Part shown: piece by piece, positions 2,418 through 13,561 of the stretch | How positions within the stretch are numbered: position 1 is the first letter of the stretch | Layout of the letters: each line of letters starts with the position of its first letter | Virus record (IMG/VR): IMGVR_UViG_3300001419_000051 | Coordinates: 1-24,723 of that record | Strand: one strand, 5' to 3' | Length of the DNA: 24,723 nucleotides | From: a virus | Program-made: the position numbers and the translations under genes | Notes under the pieces: model-generated | What the model was told of the DNA's origin: nothing | Seen by the model: the letters and a program-made list of their open reading frames with translations, nothing else | Databases searched by the model: none

Positions 2418-2458
2418 GCTGGGCTCCCCTCGCCGCCGTAGCCGTCGCCGTCCGTCAC
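2414..2458 (-). CDS. 14-codon micro-ORF bridging two genes
   Basis: A GTG at 2458-2456 overlaps the stop of the annealing-protein gene (GTGA). The reading frame MTDGDGYGGEGSPA stops at 2416-2414, overlapping the ATG of the 76-aa gene (ATGA). It exactly bridges a 37-base gap with both junctions in the style used elsewhere. It may act as a coupling relay that carries ribosomes from one gene to the next rather than making a working peptide. It contains the ribosome site of the following gene. Confidence 0.3.
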   Translation of the reverse strand: MTDGDGYGGEGSPA

Positions 2459-3144
2459 CGCCCCAGCCTCCGCATGATGTTGGCGTTGCCGCCGGACCGC
2501 TCGGGTGCGCGACGGGTGCCGGTCGACTCGGTCGGCGTCAACTCGTCCACCGTGTAGATCCCGGCGAGGACGTCGGGGTACACCGCGCGCGCCAACGACG
2601 CCGAGCACCGCGCGCGCAGCATCGCGGCCGGGTGCGACTTCCAGTTACCCTTTCCGACCAGGCCCGCGGTCCGCGCCTGCTCGATCGTGTAGCTCATGCG
2701 CGTCGGCTCCGGGTCCTCGGTCCGCTGCGTCTCGTAGACCGCGACCGTGTCGGTGCTCTCGACGAGCCGGAAGTAGCGGCAGGCCGGCGAGGACTTCGCC
2801 GCCGCGGTCATCATCTCCGCCGACAGCGTCGGGCGCCCCTCGATGACGTGGATGGACCGCAGCGACTGCATCGGGGCGATCCCCATCTCCGCGCCGGTCA
2901 GGATCGCCATCAGGATGTTGGGCGGGTTGCCGGCGAAGGCCCGCGGCACCAACTGGCTGTTGCTGAGGATGTCCGCGAAGCGCATCGCCTCGTCGAGCGA
3001 CATCGTGGTCCCCCGCATCACCGGCTCGACGCGGGCCGGCATCACCTCGCGGTCCTCCGCCGGCAAAGCATCGACGACCTCGCCGAGTTCCGCCTGCACC
3101 ATCTCGCCGCTCTGCGGCGCGTCCTCGTGGTTCTCGTTGCTCAT
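2455..3144 (-). CDS. recT: RecT-family single-strand annealing protein
   Basis: This is a 229-aa protein from ATG 3144, which overlaps the exonuclease stop (TGATG). Residues 48-117 carry the family signature. The helix 'SLDEAMRFADILSNSQLVP' comes first, followed by 'GNPPNILMAILTGAEMGIAPMQSL' and 'IHVIEGRPTLSAEMMTAAAK'. The section 'GNWKSHPAAMLRARCSASLARAVYPDVLAGIYTVDEL' follows at 166-201. RecT-type proteins coat single-stranded DNA and anneal complementary strands in phage recombination. The adjacent upstream YqaJ exonuclease is the usual partner, together forming a Red/RecET-like pair. The C-terminal 30 residues are polar and probably disordered, ending in a basic tail. The N-terminal 45 residues are acidic. 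Confidence 0.88.
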   Translation of the reverse strand: MSNENHEDAPQSGEMVQAELGEVVDALPAEDREVMPARVEPVMRGTTMSLDEAMRFADILSNSQLVPRAFAGNPPNILMAILTGAEMGIAPMQSLRSIHVIEGRPTLSAEMMTAAAKSSPACRYFRLVESTDTVAVYETQRTEDPEPTRMSYTIEQARTAGLVGKGNWKSHPAAMLRARCSASLARAVYPDVLAGIYTVDELTPTESTGTRRAPERSGGNANIMRRLGR

Positions 3145-4124
3145 CACTTCTCCCGCTTGACCGTGACGCGCAGCGTGCGCGCCGCCTGGCCGATGTACCG
3201 GCACGCCTCGTAGGCTTCCGGGTATTCCTGCTCCAGTTGCTCCAGGTCGACCCGCTCGGGCGGCGACCCGTCCTTCCAGGTGACCTTGACGCCGCCCCCG
3301 GTGGACTCCTCGGCGTCGCCCATCAGCGCGCGCAGCTCGTTGGCCGCCTGCTTCACCCGCGCGTCGATGCGCTTCGACTCGTCGCGGAGCTCGTCGTATC
3401 GCCGCGCCGCCGCGGCGAGTTCGTCGTCCATCGGACGAACGCCCACCGGGGCACCTGCGGCGACGGTGAGCGCCTGCGTGCACGCCTGCGACGACTCGAC
3501 GGGCGGCGGCTCTCCACCCACGACGTGCTTCTGCCACCACTCGCCCGCGAACTCGAGCAGGCGGTCGGAGAGCTCCGGGTCTCGGTCCATCGTGTACTCG
3601 CGGATTGACGTCCCGCGGTAAAGCACCACCAGCACGCCGCGCGGCAGGCCGGTGACCGCGAGCCCCCAGGCCAGCTGGACCTGGTACGCCTCGGGCACGT
3701 TGCCCTCGCCGCACGTCGAGCCGGTCGGCCCCCAGTCCTCGCCGTAGCCGGCGGTCACCTTGCCCTCGTAGAGCATGCGCGGGTCGATGGCGCCGAGCTG
3801 CCCGCTGCCGTCGTGCTCAAAGCCGTCCGGCGAGACGAACGCCCAGGGGTGATCGTCGTGCCGCGCAATGACGTTGTCCATCCGGCGCAGGTACGTCTCG
3901 TTTCGGCGCTCCCACTCCATGGCGACCCACGCTTCGAGTCCGCTCCCGAGGTCCATCGCCTCGTTGCGCTTCTCGGGCAGCGCCAGACCGCGCTTGGACG
4001 CCCACACGGACCAAGGCGTCGCCCACTTGGACGCGCCGAGAATCCCCGCGACATCGGTCCCGCCGAGTCCGCGCTTGCGGGCCTCGAGCCATTCGCCGCG
4101 GGTGTTGTATCGTTCGAGAATCAC
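3144..4124 (-). CDS. YqaJ/lambda-Exo-type 5'-3' exonuclease (viral recombinase)
   Basis: This is a 326-aa protein from GTG 4124, which overlaps the upstream stop (GTGA). A longer frame to 4295 covers the upstream gene and is rejected. The N-terminus has the YqaJ start motif 'RKRGLGGTDVAGILGASKW' with 'TPWSVW' (residues 17-41), then 'AMDLGSGLEAWVAMEWERR' (56-74). The nuclease core has D100 in 'SPDGFE', E120-x-K122 in 'YEGKV', and 'PEAYQVQLAWGLAVTGL' (144-160), which supplies the conserved Gln. It is expected to degrade one strand of duplex ends and hand single strands to the neighbouring RecT protein. Residues about 235-270 form a helical C-terminal region beyond the nuclease core, and the last 50 residues resemble the C-terminal part of other phage YqaJ proteins. 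Confidence 0.88.
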   Translation of the reverse strand: MILERYNTRGEWLEARKRGLGGTDVAGILGASKWATPWSVWASKRGLALPEKRNEAMDLGSGLEAWVAMEWERRNETYLRRMDNVIARHDDHPWAFVSPDGFEHDGSGQLGAIDPRMLYEGKVTAGYGEDWGPTGSTCGEGNVPEAYQVQLAWGLAVTGLPRGVLVVLYRGTSIREYTMDRDPELSDRLLEFAGEWWQKHVVGGEPPPVESSQACTQALTVAAGAPVGVRPMDDELAAAARRYDELRDESKRIDARVKQAANELRALMGDAEESTGGGVKVTWKDGSPPERVDLEQLEQEYPEAYEACRYIGQAARTLRVTVKREK

Positions 4125-4324
4125 ACGGTCCCCCGATCGTCCTCGATGCGCTCCGCCTGCGCGTCCATCAGCCCGGCCCAGAAGCCCGCCTCGTGGTCGC
4201 GGCTGCCCATGTCCGCGTCGTCCGGGTCGCGGCCGTAGTGGGCGAAGCCCGACTCCCAGCCGGCGTCGAACGCCTGTCGGTCGGTGTAGTGGCACACCTC
4301 GCCGCTCTGCATCGTGTAGTGCAC
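4121..4324 (-). CDS. 67-aa protein of unknown function
   Basis: The proposed start is GTG 4324, preceded on this strand by GGGAGAGG with a spacing of a few bases. A longer frame from 4405 would run back into the repressor gene, and ATG 4312 is an alternative start. The product is rich in aromatic, His and acidic residues, with 'AFDAGWESGFAHYGRDPDD' and 'DHEAGFWAGLMDAQAERIEDD'. The two similar parts (AGWESGFAHYG and AGFWAGLMDAQ) suggest an internal helical pair. No family is recognised. It is the second gene of the leftward operon, between the repressor and the exonuclease. Confidence 0.6.
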   Translation of the reverse strand: MHYTMQSGEVCHYTDRQAFDAGWESGFAHYGRDPDDADMGSRDHEAGFWAGLMDAQAERIEDDRGTV

Positions 4325-4368: not shown

Positions 4369-4614
4369 TCAGCCGGTCGTGGTGCTCGCCAGTTGTCTCC
4401 CGCACTGATTACACGTCGTCGACTGCTGGTGTGGCACCAGCTCCCGCAGGTCGACGCCGTAGACCTCGGCCATCCGGCCGAGCGTGCGAATATCGTGCAC
4501 ACCGTCGCGCTCCCAGCGCGCTATGGTCTGCTGCCACGTCTCCAGGGCCTTCGCTGCCTGCGCTTGCGTCAAGTCAGCGTCGCGGCGAGCCCGCCTCAAG
4601 ATTGCTCCGTTCAT
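4369..4614 (-). CDS. XRE-family helix-turn-helix repressor with C-terminal CxxC
   Basis: This is an 81-aa protein from ATG 4614. Residues 4-60 are a Cro/C1-type helix-turn-helix domain: 'ILRRARRDADLTQAQAAKALETWQQTIARWERDGVHDIRTLGRMAEVYGV', with 'TQAQAAKAL' and 'QQTIARWE' as the two helices of the motif. A short tail carries C68-x2-C71 ('TTCNQCGRQ'), possibly half of a zinc site. The upstream region holds a symmetric operator and divergent promoters. A -10-like TACGGT sits 6 bases before the ATG, so the message is probably leaderless, as for lambda cI from PRM. No cleavage or multimerisation domain of the LexA/cI type is present, so induction would not be by RecA-driven self-cleavage. Confidence 0.85.
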   Translation of the reverse strand: MNGAILRRARRDADLTQAQAAKALETWQQTIARWERDGVHDIRTLGRMAEVYGVDLRELVPHQQSTTCNQCGRQLASTTTG

Positions 4615-4620
4615 GTGCTC

Positions 4621-4648
4621 ACCGTAGCACATCCCCGATGGGATGCAA
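4621..4648 (-). promoter_or_regulatory. Leftward promoter for the repressor operon
   Basis: On the minus strand TTGCAT (4648-4643) and TACGGT (4626-4621) are separated by 16 bases, a good sigma-70-like pair. The predicted start of transcription falls at or beside the repressor ATG at 4614, implying a leaderless message. The -35 element overlaps the left arm of the operator dyad. Confidence 0.55.
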
Positions 4649-4666
4649 CGTAAAAAACAACGTTGC
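4645..4666. promoter_or_regulatory. Operator dyad GCAACGT-N8-ACGTTGC
   Basis: A perfect 7+7 bp inverted repeat with an A-rich 8-base centre (aaaaaaca) lies between the divergent repressor and early-right genes. Its arms overlap both -35 elements, so one bound dimer could block both promoters. An outer 10-bp inverted pair (GCTCACCGTA 4617-4626 and TACGGTGAGC 4686-4695) is centred on nearly the same point (about 4656), making the whole region symmetric. Confidence 0.65.
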
Positions 4667-4691
4667 GGTTGTCCGGCAGTGGCGTTACGGT
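4663..4691 (+). promoter_or_regulatory. Rightward early promoter for replication genes
   Basis: TTGCGG (4663-4668), a 17-base spacer and TACGGT (4686-4691) form a good promoter pair, placing the transcript start near 4698. The 48-aa gene starts at 4721 after a GGGAGA ribosome site (4705-4710). The -10 hexamer is identical to that of the leftward promoter. Confidence 0.55.
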
Positions 4692-4720
4692 GAGCGGGCA
4701 CATCGGGAGACGAACCCACG

Positions 4721-4867
4721 ATGACCACGAGACGACGACGCGCCGACCTGCTGCGGCAGCTGGCCGGCAAGAGCGGCGAAGACGTCCGCCGGATGCTACT
4801 CGAGCAGGCGAAGCGAGACGCGGAGCGACGGACCGAGCAAGACCGAGACGCCGAGGCGCCCGAGTGA
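4721..4867 (+). CDS. 48-aa highly charged protein, first gene of the early-right operon
   Basis: ATG 4721 to TGA 4865-4867 encodes 48 residues, very rich in Arg, Glu and Asp, with a central helix 'GEDVRRMLLEQAKRDAERR'. It has a GGGAGA ribosome site, lies directly downstream of the predicted early promoter, and its stop overlaps the GTG of the initiator gene (GTGA). No family is recognised. Its position, like that of small Cro-like or antitermination genes in other temperate phages, suggests an early regulatory or coupling role, but no helix-turn-helix is visible. Confidence 0.6.
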   Translation: MTTRRRRADLLRQLAGKSGEDVRRMLLEQAKRDAERRTEQDRDAEAPE

Positions 4868-5610
4868 CCGACACGTCAAGCGGTCCGGCGTGGTCCTGGT
4901 GGGTGCGCGACGAGTGCATCGGCCTCTCGCCGTCCGCGAGGCTGTTGCTTTACGCGCTGGCGTCGCGAGTTGGCGCAGACGGGCGCGCGTTCCCCAGCCT
5001 CTTGACGATGGCGGCGGACACCGGACTGCACCGGTCCACGATCGTGCGAGCGGTCGCCGAACTGGAGGGCGCCGGGGCGGTCCGCGTCGAGCGCGTCACC
5101 GGAAGTCGATCCAGGTACACGCTAACCCGCGAACCCGTCGCACCACGCGACCGGTCGCACAGTGGAACCGGTCGCACCACGCGACGGGGGGGGTCGCACA
5201 GTGCGACGGGGGGGGTCGCACAGTGCGACCCAAAGAGAACAATGAAGAGAACAAGGAAGAACCCAGTCCCGCGCGCGCACGCGCGAGAGGGCGCCGAGGT
5301 CGTCCCGCTCCAACCGTTGATCGCCCAGGATCCGCCGGACGGTCTGCGACTGCTCGGCGAGCTCTCGAAGGTGCTCACGAAGCGGCGACCGTGGACGTAC
5401 AACGAGGAAACCAACGCCGCGCAGCTGCTGTCGCAGTACGGGCTCGACGCCTGCCTCGAGGTGGTCAAGACGATGGACGCGGCCGACTCGCCTGTCGCGA
5501 TGTTGCGGCGTAGGCTGGAGAAGCGAGGCAACGGGCGTCCGGGCGGGAAGTCGCCGAGCGACATGACGGACGCCGAGTTTCAGCAGTGGATGCGGGAGAC
5601 ACGACAGTGA
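4864..5610 (+). CDS. Replication initiator (lambda-O/DnaD-like) with N-terminal winged helix
   Basis: This is a 248-aa protein from GTG 4864, overlapping the previous stop. The frame is open back to 4663, but that would cover the promoter region. Residues 20-90 form a winged helix-turn-helix ('LSPSARLLLYALASRVGADG', 'PSLLTMAADTGLHRSTIVRA', 'VAELEGAGAVRVER'), as in HTH_36-type phage initiators. Residues 91-145 are a low-complexity Arg/Gly/Ser linker encoded by the iterons and an A-rich stretch. Residues 160-225 are a helical C-terminal domain ('LLGELSKVLTKRRPWTYNEETNAAQLLSQYGLDACLEVV'). This domain probably contacts the helicase encoded next. The layout (DNA-binding domain, origin-encoded linker, helicase-contact domain) matches lambda O. 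The stop overlaps the helicase start. Confidence 0.8.
   Translation: MTDTSSGPAWSWWVRDECIGLSPSARLLLYALASRVGADGRAFPSLLTMAADTGLHRSTIVRAVAELEGAGAVRVERVTGSRSRYTLTREPVAPRDRSHSGTGRTTRRGGSHSATGGVAQCDPKRTMKRTRKNPVPRAHAREGAEVVPLQPLIAQDPPDGLRLLGELSKVLTKRRPWTYNEETNAAQLLSQYGLDACLEVVKTMDAADSPVAMLRRRLEKRGNGRPGGKSPSDMTDAEFQQWMRETRQ
5137..5263. other. Probable replication origin: five iterons plus an A-rich unwinding region inside the initiator gene
   Basis: Five 15-bp iterons start at 5137, 5154, 5171, 5193 and 5215, spaced 17, 17, 22 and 22 bases apart. Copies 1 and 3 are GTCGCACCACGCGAC, copy 2 is GTCGCACAGTGGAAC, and copies 4 and 5 are the perfect palindrome GTCGCACAGTGCGAC. Runs of eight G separate copies 3-4 and 4-5. 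Immediately after copy 5, bases 5231-5260 hold 19 A/T of 30 on an all-purine-biased strand, striking in so GC-rich a genome. Iterons in the initiator gene followed by an A-rich tract are the architecture of lambda ori. Confidence 0.75.
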
Positions 5611-6905
5611 GCGCAGAACGATTCCTCGTGGCGTCCATCCTGGCCGCCCCGGCGACGATCCACAGCGTCCGCGGGCGCGTGCCGGTCGAGGCCATCTCCA
5701 CGCCGAGCCTGCGGCACGTCTACGCCGCGGCGGTCGAGCTCGCCGAGGACGGCCAGGTCCCGAGCGTCGCCGCGCTGGTCAGCGTGAAGGGGTTCGACAA
5801 CGGGCGCCTCGTCGAGATCGCGATGGCGGCGGACGACGGGCGCGACGCGACTCAACTTGCGGAGCTCGTAGCGGGCGCGCACCTCGGCCGACGACTCCAG
5901 GCCATCGCGGCGAACGCAGCGATCGACCTGTCGACGGTCGAGCCGCAGCGCGCAAAGGGCGTAGCCAGCGACCTCATCGCGGCGATCGTCGGCGAGCTCA
6001 CCGCAGGCGGGGACGCTGGGCACATGGTCACGATGCGCGAGGCGGTCGCGACGGCCATCGGGGAGATTCGGGACGCCTTCCGCCGCCGAGACGCGGGCGA
6101 GCCGCCACGCGGGTACACCACCGGGCTCCGCAACCTCGACGACATGCTCGGAGAGGGCGGACCGCTGCCCGGCCAGTTGCTGTTCATCGGCGCCGGACCG
6201 GGAACCGGCAAGACTGCGATGGCGCTCGGCATGGTACGTGCCGCGGCTGCGCAGCGGCCGACGCAGGCGCATGTCTACCTGACCGGGGAGACATGGGCCG
6301 CGCAGCTCGCGCGGCGGCACATCGCCGCGGGGTCCGGCGTGAGGATGCAGCAGTTGCGGGCGGACAGGACCGCGACCGCCGACGAGGTCAGCGCGCGCAT
6401 GCACTCGTGGATGCAGCGTGACCGCGCGGTCCCCGACAACATCCTGGTGGTGGACAAGCCGAAGCCGGGCGTCGGCGACGTGCTGGCGGCAATCTACGCT
6501 GCTCGCGCGCGGTTCGACCTCGTCGGCATGGTCGTGGTGGATCACCTGCACCTGATGCGGCACAGGAACGACGAGCACGACGAGCCCGCCATCCGGCACA
6601 CCATCGAGAGCCTGCACGCCATCGCGCACCAGGAGCGGCCGGCGCTCGTCATCCCGGCGCAGCTGAACCGCTCGAGGAAGGACCACGCGGGCGTGCCGCC
6701 GATGACCACGATTCGAGGCGCGGGCGCCGTTGAGGAGTTCGCGCACCAGGTGCTGATGATGGCGACGGACGATTCGCACAGCGACGAACGCACCATCATC
6801 GCGAACATCGACAAGAACCGGGACGGAAGGATGGGACCGCTGCGGTTCCGGTTCACGGGCTCCACACAGCGGTTCCGCGAAGCGGGAGATGACTACGATG
6901 GATGA
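5607..6905 (+). CDS. DnaB-like replicative helicase
   Basis: This is a 432-aa protein from GTG 5607, which overlaps the initiator stop and has GCGGGAGA at 5592-5599. Residues 1-100 resemble the DnaB N-terminal domain (AERFLVASIL..., then PSLRHVYAAAVELAEDGQVPS). The RecA-like motor starts about residue 168 ('GYTTGLRNLDDMLGEGGPLPGQ'), with Walker A GPGTGKT at 197-203. 'TGETW' (227-230) stands where DnaB has 'SLEM'. Walker B is 'VGMVVVDHLHLM' with D312. 'VIPAQLNRSRKDH' (348-360) is the usual 'QLNR' motif, and 'NIDKNRDGRMGPLRFRF' (400-416) supplies the arginine finger and C-terminal strand. It unwinds DNA at the phage fork and would be loaded by the initiator encoded upstream. No primase domain is present, so a host primase is presumably used. 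Confidence 0.88.
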   Translation: MSAERFLVASILAAPATIHSVRGRVPVEAISTPSLRHVYAAAVELAEDGQVPSVAALVSVKGFDNGRLVEIAMAADDGRDATQLAELVAGAHLGRRLQAIAANAAIDLSTVEPQRAKGVASDLIAAIVGELTAGGDAGHMVTMREAVATAIGEIRDAFRRRDAGEPPRGYTTGLRNLDDMLGEGGPLPGQLLFIGAGPGTGKTAMALGMVRAAAAQRPTQAHVYLTGETWAAQLARRHIAAGSGVRMQQLRADRTATADEVSARMHSWMQRDRAVPDNILVVDKPKPGVGDVLAAIYAARARFDLVGMVVVDHLHLMRHRNDEHDEPAIRHTIESLHAIAHQERPALVIPAQLNRSRKDHAGVPPMTTIRGAGAVEEFAHQVLMMATDDSHSDERTIIANIDKNRDGRMGPLRFRFTGSTQRFREAGDDYDG

Positions 6906-11374: not shown

Positions 11375-13561
11375 ATGACCTACGAATCCTTCTTGCGGGC
11401 AAAGGCGCCCGCCCATCCAGATACAGGCATCAGCGTCGGCGCCGTGCACCACTCGCTTTTCGAGTGGCAGGCTGCGGTCGTCAAATGGGCGCTCCGCAAG
11501 GGTCGAGCGTGTCTGTTTGAGGACTGCGGCCTGGGCAAGACGCTCCAGCAGCTTGTGTGGGCGCAGAACGTGCCCGGCGACGTGCTGATTCTGACGCCGC
11601 TGGCCGTCGCGGAGCAGACCGCGGCCGAGGCGCGACGGTTTGGCATCGCGGCGGGCGTGACCAGGGACGGCTCGAAGTTCGAGCGTGGTCACATCACAAT
11701 CACGAACTACGAGCGGCTGCACCGGTACGACGTGGCCGACTTCCGCGGCCTGGTGCTCGACGAGTCGTCGATCCTGAAGGCGCACGACGGCAAGACGCGC
11801 ACCGCCATCATCGAAGCGGCGCAGTCGGTGCCGTTCCGGCTCGCGTGCACCGCGACCCCGGCGCCGAACGACCACATGGAGCTCGCGAACCATGCCGAGT
11901 TCGTTGGCGCGATGACTCGCAACGAGATGCTGGCCCGGTTTTTCGTGCACGACGGCGGGTCCACTCAGTCGTGGAGGCTCAAGGGCCACGCACGCGACGA
12001 CTTCTGGTCATGGGTCGCGACCTGGGCTGTGATGGTGCGCACGCCTGCCGACCTCGGATACGACGCGACCGGATACGACCTGCCCGCCCTCGTGACTGAG
12101 GAGTGCCACATCGACACCGGAATTGTGCCCGAGGGTGAATTGTTTGCGGTCGCCGCGTCGTCGATGAACGACCAGCGCCGGGCGCGCAAGCGCACCATGA
12201 TGGACCGGGTGCGGGCTGTCGCAGACCGCGTCAACGGCAACGCCGACCAGTGGGTGGTGTGGTGCGAGTTGAACGCCGAGGGCGACGCACTCGCAGGCGC
12301 CATCGCGGGCGCCGTTCAGGTGTCCGGCTCGGACTCTGACGAAGACAAGGCGCGCAAGCTGGCCGCGTTCCAGTCCGGCGACGCGCGGGTCATCGTCACC
12401 AAGCCGAAAATCGCGGGGTTCGGACTCAACTGGCAGCACTGCCACAGGATGGCGTTCGTGGGCCTGTCGCACTCGTGGGAGCAGTTCTACCAGGCGGTGC
12501 GGCGGTGTTGGAGGTTCGGCCAGGATCGCGAGGTCGAGGTGTTCATCGTGTCCACCGACGTGGAGGCGGCGGTTCTCCAGAACATCAAGCGCAAGCAGGA
12601 CTCGGCCGACGAGATGGCGGCCGAGATGGTTTCACGGATGGGGCCGACGATGCGCGGCCAGATTGAGGGGGCGCTCGTGGTTGAGCAGAACATCGAGACG
12701 GGCGACGTCGCCGAGGGCGACGGGTGGCGCGTGACGCACGATGACTGCGTGCGGGTCGTCGGCGCGATGGAGTCGGAATCGGTGCACTATTCGGTGTTCT
12801 CGCCGCCGTTCGCATCGCTCTACACGTACACCGACGACCCTCGAGACATGGGCAACTGCTCGGACCACGACACGTTCTACGAGCACTTCGGACATCTGGT
12901 GCCCGAACTGTTCCGCGTCACCAAGCCGGGGCGGTTGCTGTCGTTCCATTGCATGGACCTGCCCACGTCGAAGGCGCGCGACGGCGTGATCGGGCTGCGC
13001 GACTTTCGCGGCGAGCTGGTGCGGCTGTTCGAGTCGCACGGGTGGATCCTCCACTCGCAGGTCACGATCTGGAAGGACCCTGTGACGGCGATGCAGCGCA
13101 CCAAGGCTCTCGGGCTGCTGCACAAGCAGCTCAAGAAGGACTCGTGCATGAGCCGCCAGGGAATCCCCGACTACCTCGTGACGATGCGCAAGCCGGGCGA
13201 CAACCCCGAGAGGGTTTCGCACACGAACGAGACGTTTCCCGTGCAGATGTGGCAGCGGTACGCGTCGCCGGTGTGGATGGATATCGACCCGTCGGACACG
13301 CTCCAGTTCCGCAGCGCCCGCGAGCACGACGACGAGCGCCACATCTGCCCGCTGCAGCTGGGCGTGATTCGGCGGGCGCTCAAGCTGTGGACGAACGAGG
13401 GCGACACCGTGCTGTCTCCGTTCACCGGCATCGGCAGCGAGGGCCACGTCGCGCTCGAGATGGGACGCAGGTTCGTCGGCGCCGAACTGAAGCGATCGTA
13501 CTTCGACCAGGCTCGGCGCAACCTCGCCGCGGCGACCGAGCAGATGTCGTTCGCGCTGTGA
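11375..13561 (+). CDS. SNF2-type helicase fused to a beta-class DNA methyltransferase
   Basis: This is a 728-aa protein from ATG 11375 with AGCGGGAGA four bases upstream. Residues 1-430 are an SNF2/DEAD-like helicase: Walker A 'DCGLGKT' (50-56), 'DESSILK' (129-135), 'CTATPAPN' (158-165), and motif VI 'QAVRRCWRFGQ' (373-383) with 'GLSHSWEQFYQ' just before. Residues 450-728 are a methyltransferase in permuted order. 'SPPF' (476-479) is motif IV, and 'SPFTGIGSEGHVALEMGRRFVGAEL' (681-705) is the SAM-binding motif I region. SPP[FY] is typical of N4-cytosine enzymes, though adenine specificity cannot be excluded. Such fusions occur in phages, and the overall idea resembles P1 DarB (methyltransferase-helicase used against restriction). 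Likely role: modifying the phage genome, possibly while translocating along it. Confidence 0.85.
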   Translation: MTYESFLRAKAPAHPDTGISVGAVHHSLFEWQAAVVKWALRKGRACLFEDCGLGKTLQQLVWAQNVPGDVLILTPLAVAEQTAAEARRFGIAAGVTRDGSKFERGHITITNYERLHRYDVADFRGLVLDESSILKAHDGKTRTAIIEAAQSVPFRLACTATPAPNDHMELANHAEFVGAMTRNEMLARFFVHDGGSTQSWRLKGHARDDFWSWVATWAVMVRTPADLGYDATGYDLPALVTEECHIDTGIVPEGELFAVAASSMNDQRRARKRTMMDRVRAVADRVNGNADQWVVWCELNAEGDALAGAIAGAVQVSGSDSDEDKARKLAAFQSGDARVIVTKPKIAGFGLNWQHCHRMAFVGLSHSWEQFYQAVRRCWRFGQDREVEVFIVSTDVEAAVLQNIKRKQDSADEMAAEMVSRMGPTMRGQIEGALVVEQNIETGDVAEGDGWRVTHDDCVRVVGAMESESVHYSVFSPPFASLYTYTDDPRDMGNCSDHDTFYEHFGHLVPELFRVTKPGRLLSFHCMDLPTSKARDGVIGLRDFRGELVRLFESHGWILHSQVTIWKDPVTAMQRTKALGLLHKQLKKDSCMSRQGIPDYLVTMRKPGDNPERVSHTNETFPVQMWQRYASPVWMDIDPSDTLQFRSAREHDDERHICPLQLGVIRRALKLWTNEGDTVLSPFTGIGSEGHVALEMGRRFVGAELKRSYFDQARRNLAAATEQMSFAL

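Follow-up and report, generated by a model that had tools for sequence, protein, structure and literature searches.

Results

The window, by which we mean the whole stretch of DNA analysed here, is the 24,723 nt of the IMG/VR record IMGVR_UViG_3300001419_000051 (positions 1-24,723), taken as a single strand. At 4864-5610 of its plus strand lies a GTG-started gene of 248 aa that we call the initiator gene, from its Pfam HTH_36 match, its PHROG families and its AlphaFold model. Residues 20-71 match HTH_36 (PF13730) with E=1.4e-12 and 47.7 bits, against a curated cut-off of 25, and the protein matches the replication-initiation families phrog_270 (1.9e-11), phrog_6643 (2.6e-11) and the "O-like" phrog_391 (3.7e-8). 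While O-like PHROG families match, Phage_rep_O gives no Pfam match at E up to 1; RepA_N (PF06970) and Rep_3 (PF01051) are likewise absent from the Pfam matches up to this value, and no solved structure matches the protein by sequence. The AlphaFold model displays a confident winged helix at about residues 11-90, a low-confidence segment at about 91-157, which is predicted to be a disordered linker, and helices at 159-223 and 236-247.

The following gene (5607-6905, plus strand), whose start overlaps the initiator stop by four bases, encodes a DnaB-like replicative helicase (PF03796, DnaB_C, E=4e-32); its match to TIGR03600, phage_DnaB, has E=8.7e-38 and lies under the curated cut-off of that model. 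On the other side, a 48-aa ORF without family match (4721-4867, plus strand) has its stop overlapping the initiator start. Left of this replication operon and divergent from it, a repressor-like HTH_3 gene (4369-4614, minus strand, with Pfam and PHROG matches) sits between the operon and two leftward genes, also divergent from the operon, for a RecT-like annealing protein and a RecE/YqaJ-like exonuclease (2455-4295, minus strand). At 11375-13561 (plus strand), a 728-aa gene fuses an SNF2/DEAD-type helicase with an N6/N4 DNA methyltransferase (PF00176, PF00271, PF01555), a combination that looks restriction- or protection-like. The GC-skew minimum near 4.5 kb was set aside as evidence for an origin, because it coincides with the switch of gene direction.

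Five 15-bp iterons, all on the plus strand, are found inside the initiator gene: GTCGCACCACGCGAC at 5137-5151, GTCGCACAGTGGAAC at 5154-5168, GTCGCACCACGCGAC again at 5171-5185, and GTCGCACAGTGCGAC both at 5193-5207 and at 5215-5229. In degenerate form the word is GTYGCAC-NNN-GYRAC. The number of copies, their starts and their successive spacings of 17, 17, 22 and 22 bp are those given by the earlier note on this DNA. When both strands of the window were scanned for matches with at most three mismatches from GTCGCACAGTGCGAC, 14 were obtained, 10 of which are the five sites; the same scan on 100 dinucleotide shuffles gave 3.47 matches on average and 10 at most. The strict form GTCGCACNNNGCGAC has no further occurrence anywhere in the record. 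The array starts 273 bp into the gene and covers codons 92-122, and an A-rich tract behind it extends to codon 133, so that both fall within the predicted disordered linker. Two descriptions have to be trimmed. The two copies taken for perfect palindromes do have 7-nt arms, but one central base remains unpaired between them; the arms of iterons 1 and 3 are only 5 nt long and the dyad of iteron 2 is imperfect. Similarly, "about two helix turns" suits the spacing of 22 bp (about 2 turns) but not that of 17 bp (about 1.6 turns).

The A-rich stretch directly behind the iterons (19 of 30 bases A/T at 5231-5260) is present as described. Moreover, the 31 bp at 5232-5262 (plus strand), proposed here as the DNA unwinding element, rank last in nearest-neighbour stability among the 24,693 stretches of this length in the window (-37.2 kcal/mol, the mean being -50.0 kcal/mol). 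The tract is thus stronger evidence than previously claimed.

The spacings of 17 and 22 bp shift the reading frame at every step, so the five copies yield different peptides (VAPRD, SHSGT, TTR, SHSAT and VAQCD) and all three frames are used. Among named phages we found no close relative of the window, either by DNA or by initiator protein; in IMG/VR there is a single close contig, L005, whose initiator protein is 95% identical. Over the array and the A-rich tract, L005 differs from the window at one of 135 nt, the central base of iteron 5. None of the 45 third positions of this region differs, whereas 32 of 203 do so in the remainder of the gene; once the clustering of differences is allowed for, this conservation is borderline (0.04, 4% of shifted windows being equally well conserved). 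The presence of copies in all three frames, together with the predicted disorder of the linker, argues that the DNA and not the peptide is conserved, so that the peptide would be incidental. The earlier note regarded as damaging any relatives whose linker keeps its residues and loses the DNA repeats: the comparison with relatives gave the opposite, the residues being lost and the repeats kept, in changing frames.

The same word was then sought in other genomes. A degenerate two-iteron form of it retrieved 33 viral contigs, 20 of which have the array inside an HTH_36-like winged-helix initiator gene; this was so in none of the 10 contigs retrieved by a control pattern matched in composition. 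These 20 include near-identical contigs, and most profile seeds came from them; nevertheless Pfam independently calls HTH_36 (PF13730) in 41 of the 42 members of the final alignment. Apart from that of L005, the sampled proteins found by the pattern are only about 19-28% identical to the window initiator, the word is spelled with GTTGCA or GTCGCA depending on the genome, and its frame differs among unrelated proteins. The array DNA itself, used as query against phages, gave chance matches only. Five of the viral loci retrieved by the pattern were rejected as low-complexity matches, four being peptide-repeat genes (L009, L015, L020 and L028) and one a collagen-like gene (L038).

A genome pattern scan with the window word gave 10 loci. 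L048 is clearly a prophage initiator, and the array lies within it; in L043-L047 and L049 the repeats lie in other genes or between genes, which indicates that three copies of the word do not by themselves prove an origin. L045 (Mycolicibacterium canariasense, about 1345-1435) carries three 26-bp units based on GTCGCACCATGCGACTTCGCCCTCAC, and no initiator was detected in their vicinity. The related contigs L040, L041 and L042, from Kiritimatiellae/Verrucomicrobia MAGs, have three to four copies each, near or within broken initiator frames—in L040 the winged-helix frame ends 86 bp away—and may be decayed prophage initiators. Two other placements were observed: several copies of the GTTGCAC-NNN-GCAAC type at 5100-5340 of L025, which lie about 116 bp away from a winged-helix ORF rather than within it, and a close pair of this word at 4310-4345 of L031, just upstream of another winged-helix-like gene and not inside its likely coding part.

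As the preceding searches start from the repeats, we also retrieved relatives using only the winged-helix domain, which involves no selection on repeats; an alignment of a 14-protein family was too diverse for scanning, hence the use of this sole domain. The 80 IMG/VR loci and 20 named phage or plasmid regions so gathered were reduced to 48 genes by removing close copies. In 33 of these 48, the 260 nt behind the domain contain a significant array of at least three copies, and in the other 15 the linker has none. Control stretches of the same genes had arrays in 3 of 47 cases upstream, 0 of 48 in the domain and 0 of 48 farther downstream. The iteron words vary widely, e.g. GCACAG-3-CTGTGC in ZF40, or elsewhere GTGTCA-3-TGACAC and GTCCCA-3-TGGGAC. 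In one initiator, that of L084, the in-gene array, about 119-186 nt past the winged helix, consists of words resembling DnaA boxes, TTATCCACA and TGTGGATAA, which would suit binding by the host DnaA.

By contrast with the words, which vary, the layout is regular. Over 42 arrays the spacing is 16-17 bp in 25 cases, 21-25 bp in 97 and 18-20 bp in one; the protein-first arrays alone give 17 short spacings, 76 long ones and none at 18-20. Where both classes occur, the short spacings all come first in 12 of 13 arrays, as they do in the window, whereas chance would give 3.3 (P 7.5e-8, the arrays being treated as unrelated). Besides, in 41 relatives the 40 bp that follow the last iteron are richer in AT by 0.11-0.13, with no rise upstream.

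The frames used by these arrays bear on a first alternative, according to which the repeats are a protein-level feature, namely a low-complexity repetitive linker peptide or a tandem duplication devoid of DNA function. Indeed 12 of the 41 arrays keep a single frame, with periods of 21 or 24 bp, and so repeat the peptide too. However, the other 29 use two or three frames, the spacings modulo 3 distribute as 50/40/36, only weakly uneven, and unrelated proteins have the DNA word in different frames; adding the differing peptides of the window, we consider this explanation extremely improbable.

A second alternative places the function in hairpins, G-structures or slippage on G8 runs, acting in mRNA regulation or programmed frameshifting. 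The earlier note had pointed to two gaps filled by G8 runs (5186-5193 and 5208-5215, plus strand). The gaps between iterons 3 and 4 and between iterons 4 and 5 are indeed G-filled, but each contains seven G, the eighth already belonging to the next iteron, as its first base. These runs are intact in L005, and as a single strand the array folds much more strongly than shuffled sequences do (z about -7). Such folding, however, follows trivially from palindromic repeats. In the relatives other than L005, which frequently have spacers rich in C or G, runs of eight are absent, and the arrays persist with these other spacers and with imperfect dyads; nor was any alternative-frame product seen. The suggestion that the runs form unusual structures is thus left without comparative support, and we see hardly any chance that they are the working element.

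Behind the arrays a second repeat appears, which is common to many relatives. GAACC is present there in 33 of 41 arrays (5.6 expected after shuffling) and at least twice in 24 of 41 (0.3 expected), typically as AGAACC-NN-TCA with copies 11-12 or 17 bp apart, and it is nearly absent farther downstream. Frame 0 is favoured (50/15/10), suggesting that the repeats may be partly coding, for EP residues, although spacings of 11 and 17 bp shift the frame. From their likeness to this repeat, three degenerate copies can be proposed on the plus strand of the window: GAACAATGA at 5237-5245, GAACAAGGA at 5249-5257, 12 bp past the first, and, with a weak score, GAACCCAGT at 5259-5267, 10 bp past the second. 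Those at 5237 and 5249 are within the nine best AGAACC-type matches of the window and form the only adjacent pair among them.

We also compared the recognition helices with the iteron words. T59 and R62 are found in 14 of 14 initiators associated with a window-type word, against 24 and 21 respectively of 47 others, and residue 56 is H, N or D in 12 of the former 14 and in 11 of the 47. As these counts ignore shared ancestry, and the correlation is not significant in the protein-first subset alone (which has two genes of window type), we retain as a lead that these residues might set the word.

Discussion

We interpret the locus as a theta-type phage replication origin, lambda-O-like, lying inside the coding sequence of its own initiator. 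On the sequence comparisons above, the probability of this reading is estimated at about 0.92. The N-terminal winged helix, probably in dimeric form, would bind the five dyad iterons, and the nucleoprotein complex so formed would strain and open the neighbouring A-rich tract (5232-5262). Next, the C-terminal helices of the initiator would recruit the DnaB-like helicase of the phage, encoded by the next gene, onto the opened strands. The linker stretch would be kept as DNA, the protein tolerating whatever the three frames encode. Since the 24.7-kb record may be a fragment, a second origin may exist elsewhere.

It could be argued that the winged-helix protein binds its own gene in order to repress or roadblock its own transcription, the origin being elsewhere. 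Dyad sites for such a protein do resemble operators, and HTH_36 is a general DNA-binding domain. Against this, the array lies well inside the gene rather than ahead of it, and no sigma-70-like promoter was detected at 4550-5700 (by a consensus scan only). An operator would also leave unexplained the adjoining stability minimum, the AT rise of the relatives and the AGAACC repeats. We regard an operator without origin as very unlikely; autoregulation is a possible second effect of the same repeats.

If the locus is the origin, that of an uncultivated GC-rich phage is narrowed down to about 130 bp, and in other phages origins could be sought from sequence alone by one rule: to check the linker behind the HTH_36 domain. 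More generally, there is in our view an even chance that the arrays obey a common grammar of HTH_36 phage origins, with iterons specific to each initiator, spacings of 16-17 bp on the 5' side, spacings of 21-25 bp beside the unwinding element, then a constant AGAACC-NN-TCA, while the iteron words change. Neither the spacing rule nor the common AGAACC repeats are described in the papers searched, a coverage that leaves out most subscription journals. Were this grammar true, the invariant repeats would be read, single- or double-stranded, by something common to the initiators or to the hosts, and the residues of the recognition helix would predict the iteron word. TrfA of RK2 binds its 13-mers as single strand (PMC4081077); by analogy, the AGAACC-type repeats could be read after opening. 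This raises the questions of why the two spacings keep a constant order, which factor recognises the AGAACC repeats, and whether the word is determined by T59, R62 and an H, N or D at residue 56.

The comparison of the locus with the lambda O/ori plan, already made in the earlier note, holds: the N-terminal DNA-binding domain, the in-gene iterons, the AT-rich tract on their 3' side and the neighbouring helicase gene all fit. In the lambda O gene, for which an in-gene origin is established, dyad iterons are likewise followed by an A-rich tract and a partner gene comes next, and the DNA binding of O is a precedent (PMC7466680). Self-complementarity had been presented as a difference from lambda, but lambda iterons show dyad symmetry as well. 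The actual differences are otherwise: lambda iterons are 18 bp long and of another word, against 15 bp here; their spacings (20, 24 and 23) overlap our long class, the 17-bp class being absent; lambda has no AGAACC repeats; and its partner gene encodes the loader P instead of a DnaB-like helicase. In the gene 18 - gene 12 modules of P22/L-type phages, an initiator with in-gene repeats is followed by a DnaB-type helicase gene (PMC8022706). ST64T is organized in the same way, but the ST64T/L repeats are 11 bp long and partly in tandem, unlike the 15-bp dyads at 17 and 22 bp of the window.

Among plasmids, the rep gene of pSK41, shown to hold an in-gene origin, carries four Rep boxes at its centre, which encode a deletable linker, and a chimeric initiator of pPR9 whose N-terminus is of the HTH_36 type (PF13730) is functional in replication (PMC5703833). 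RepA_N initiators such as that of pSK41 share with the window central in-gene boxes over a linker; they differ by their Gram-positive hosts and a host-directed C-terminus, whereas the window protein has no RepA_N match in Pfam. The winged-helix folds look alike, but fold comparison ranks 4pql (Z 10.0), 4pt7 (9.8) and 5kbj (8.8) level with unrelated winged helices, for which reason we claim no kinship with RepA_N from the fold. An in-gene origin has also been shown for repC of repABC plasmids, and in some HTH_36 plasmid initiators (Paracoccus) the iterons are upstream of rep instead (PMC3832669).

Further counterparts are phage genes annotated "replication protein O" with an HTH_36 domain, for example in Pectobacterium ZF40, Pseudomonas MD8 and Klebsiella RothD. 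They share with the window the domain, the array in the linker, the two spacing classes and the AT-rich tract behind, but have other iteron words; in MD8 the in-gene repeats had already been noted (PMC8508860). An origin inside the initiator gene is thus of a kind already known; what is newer here is the spacing rule, together with the AGAACC repeats.
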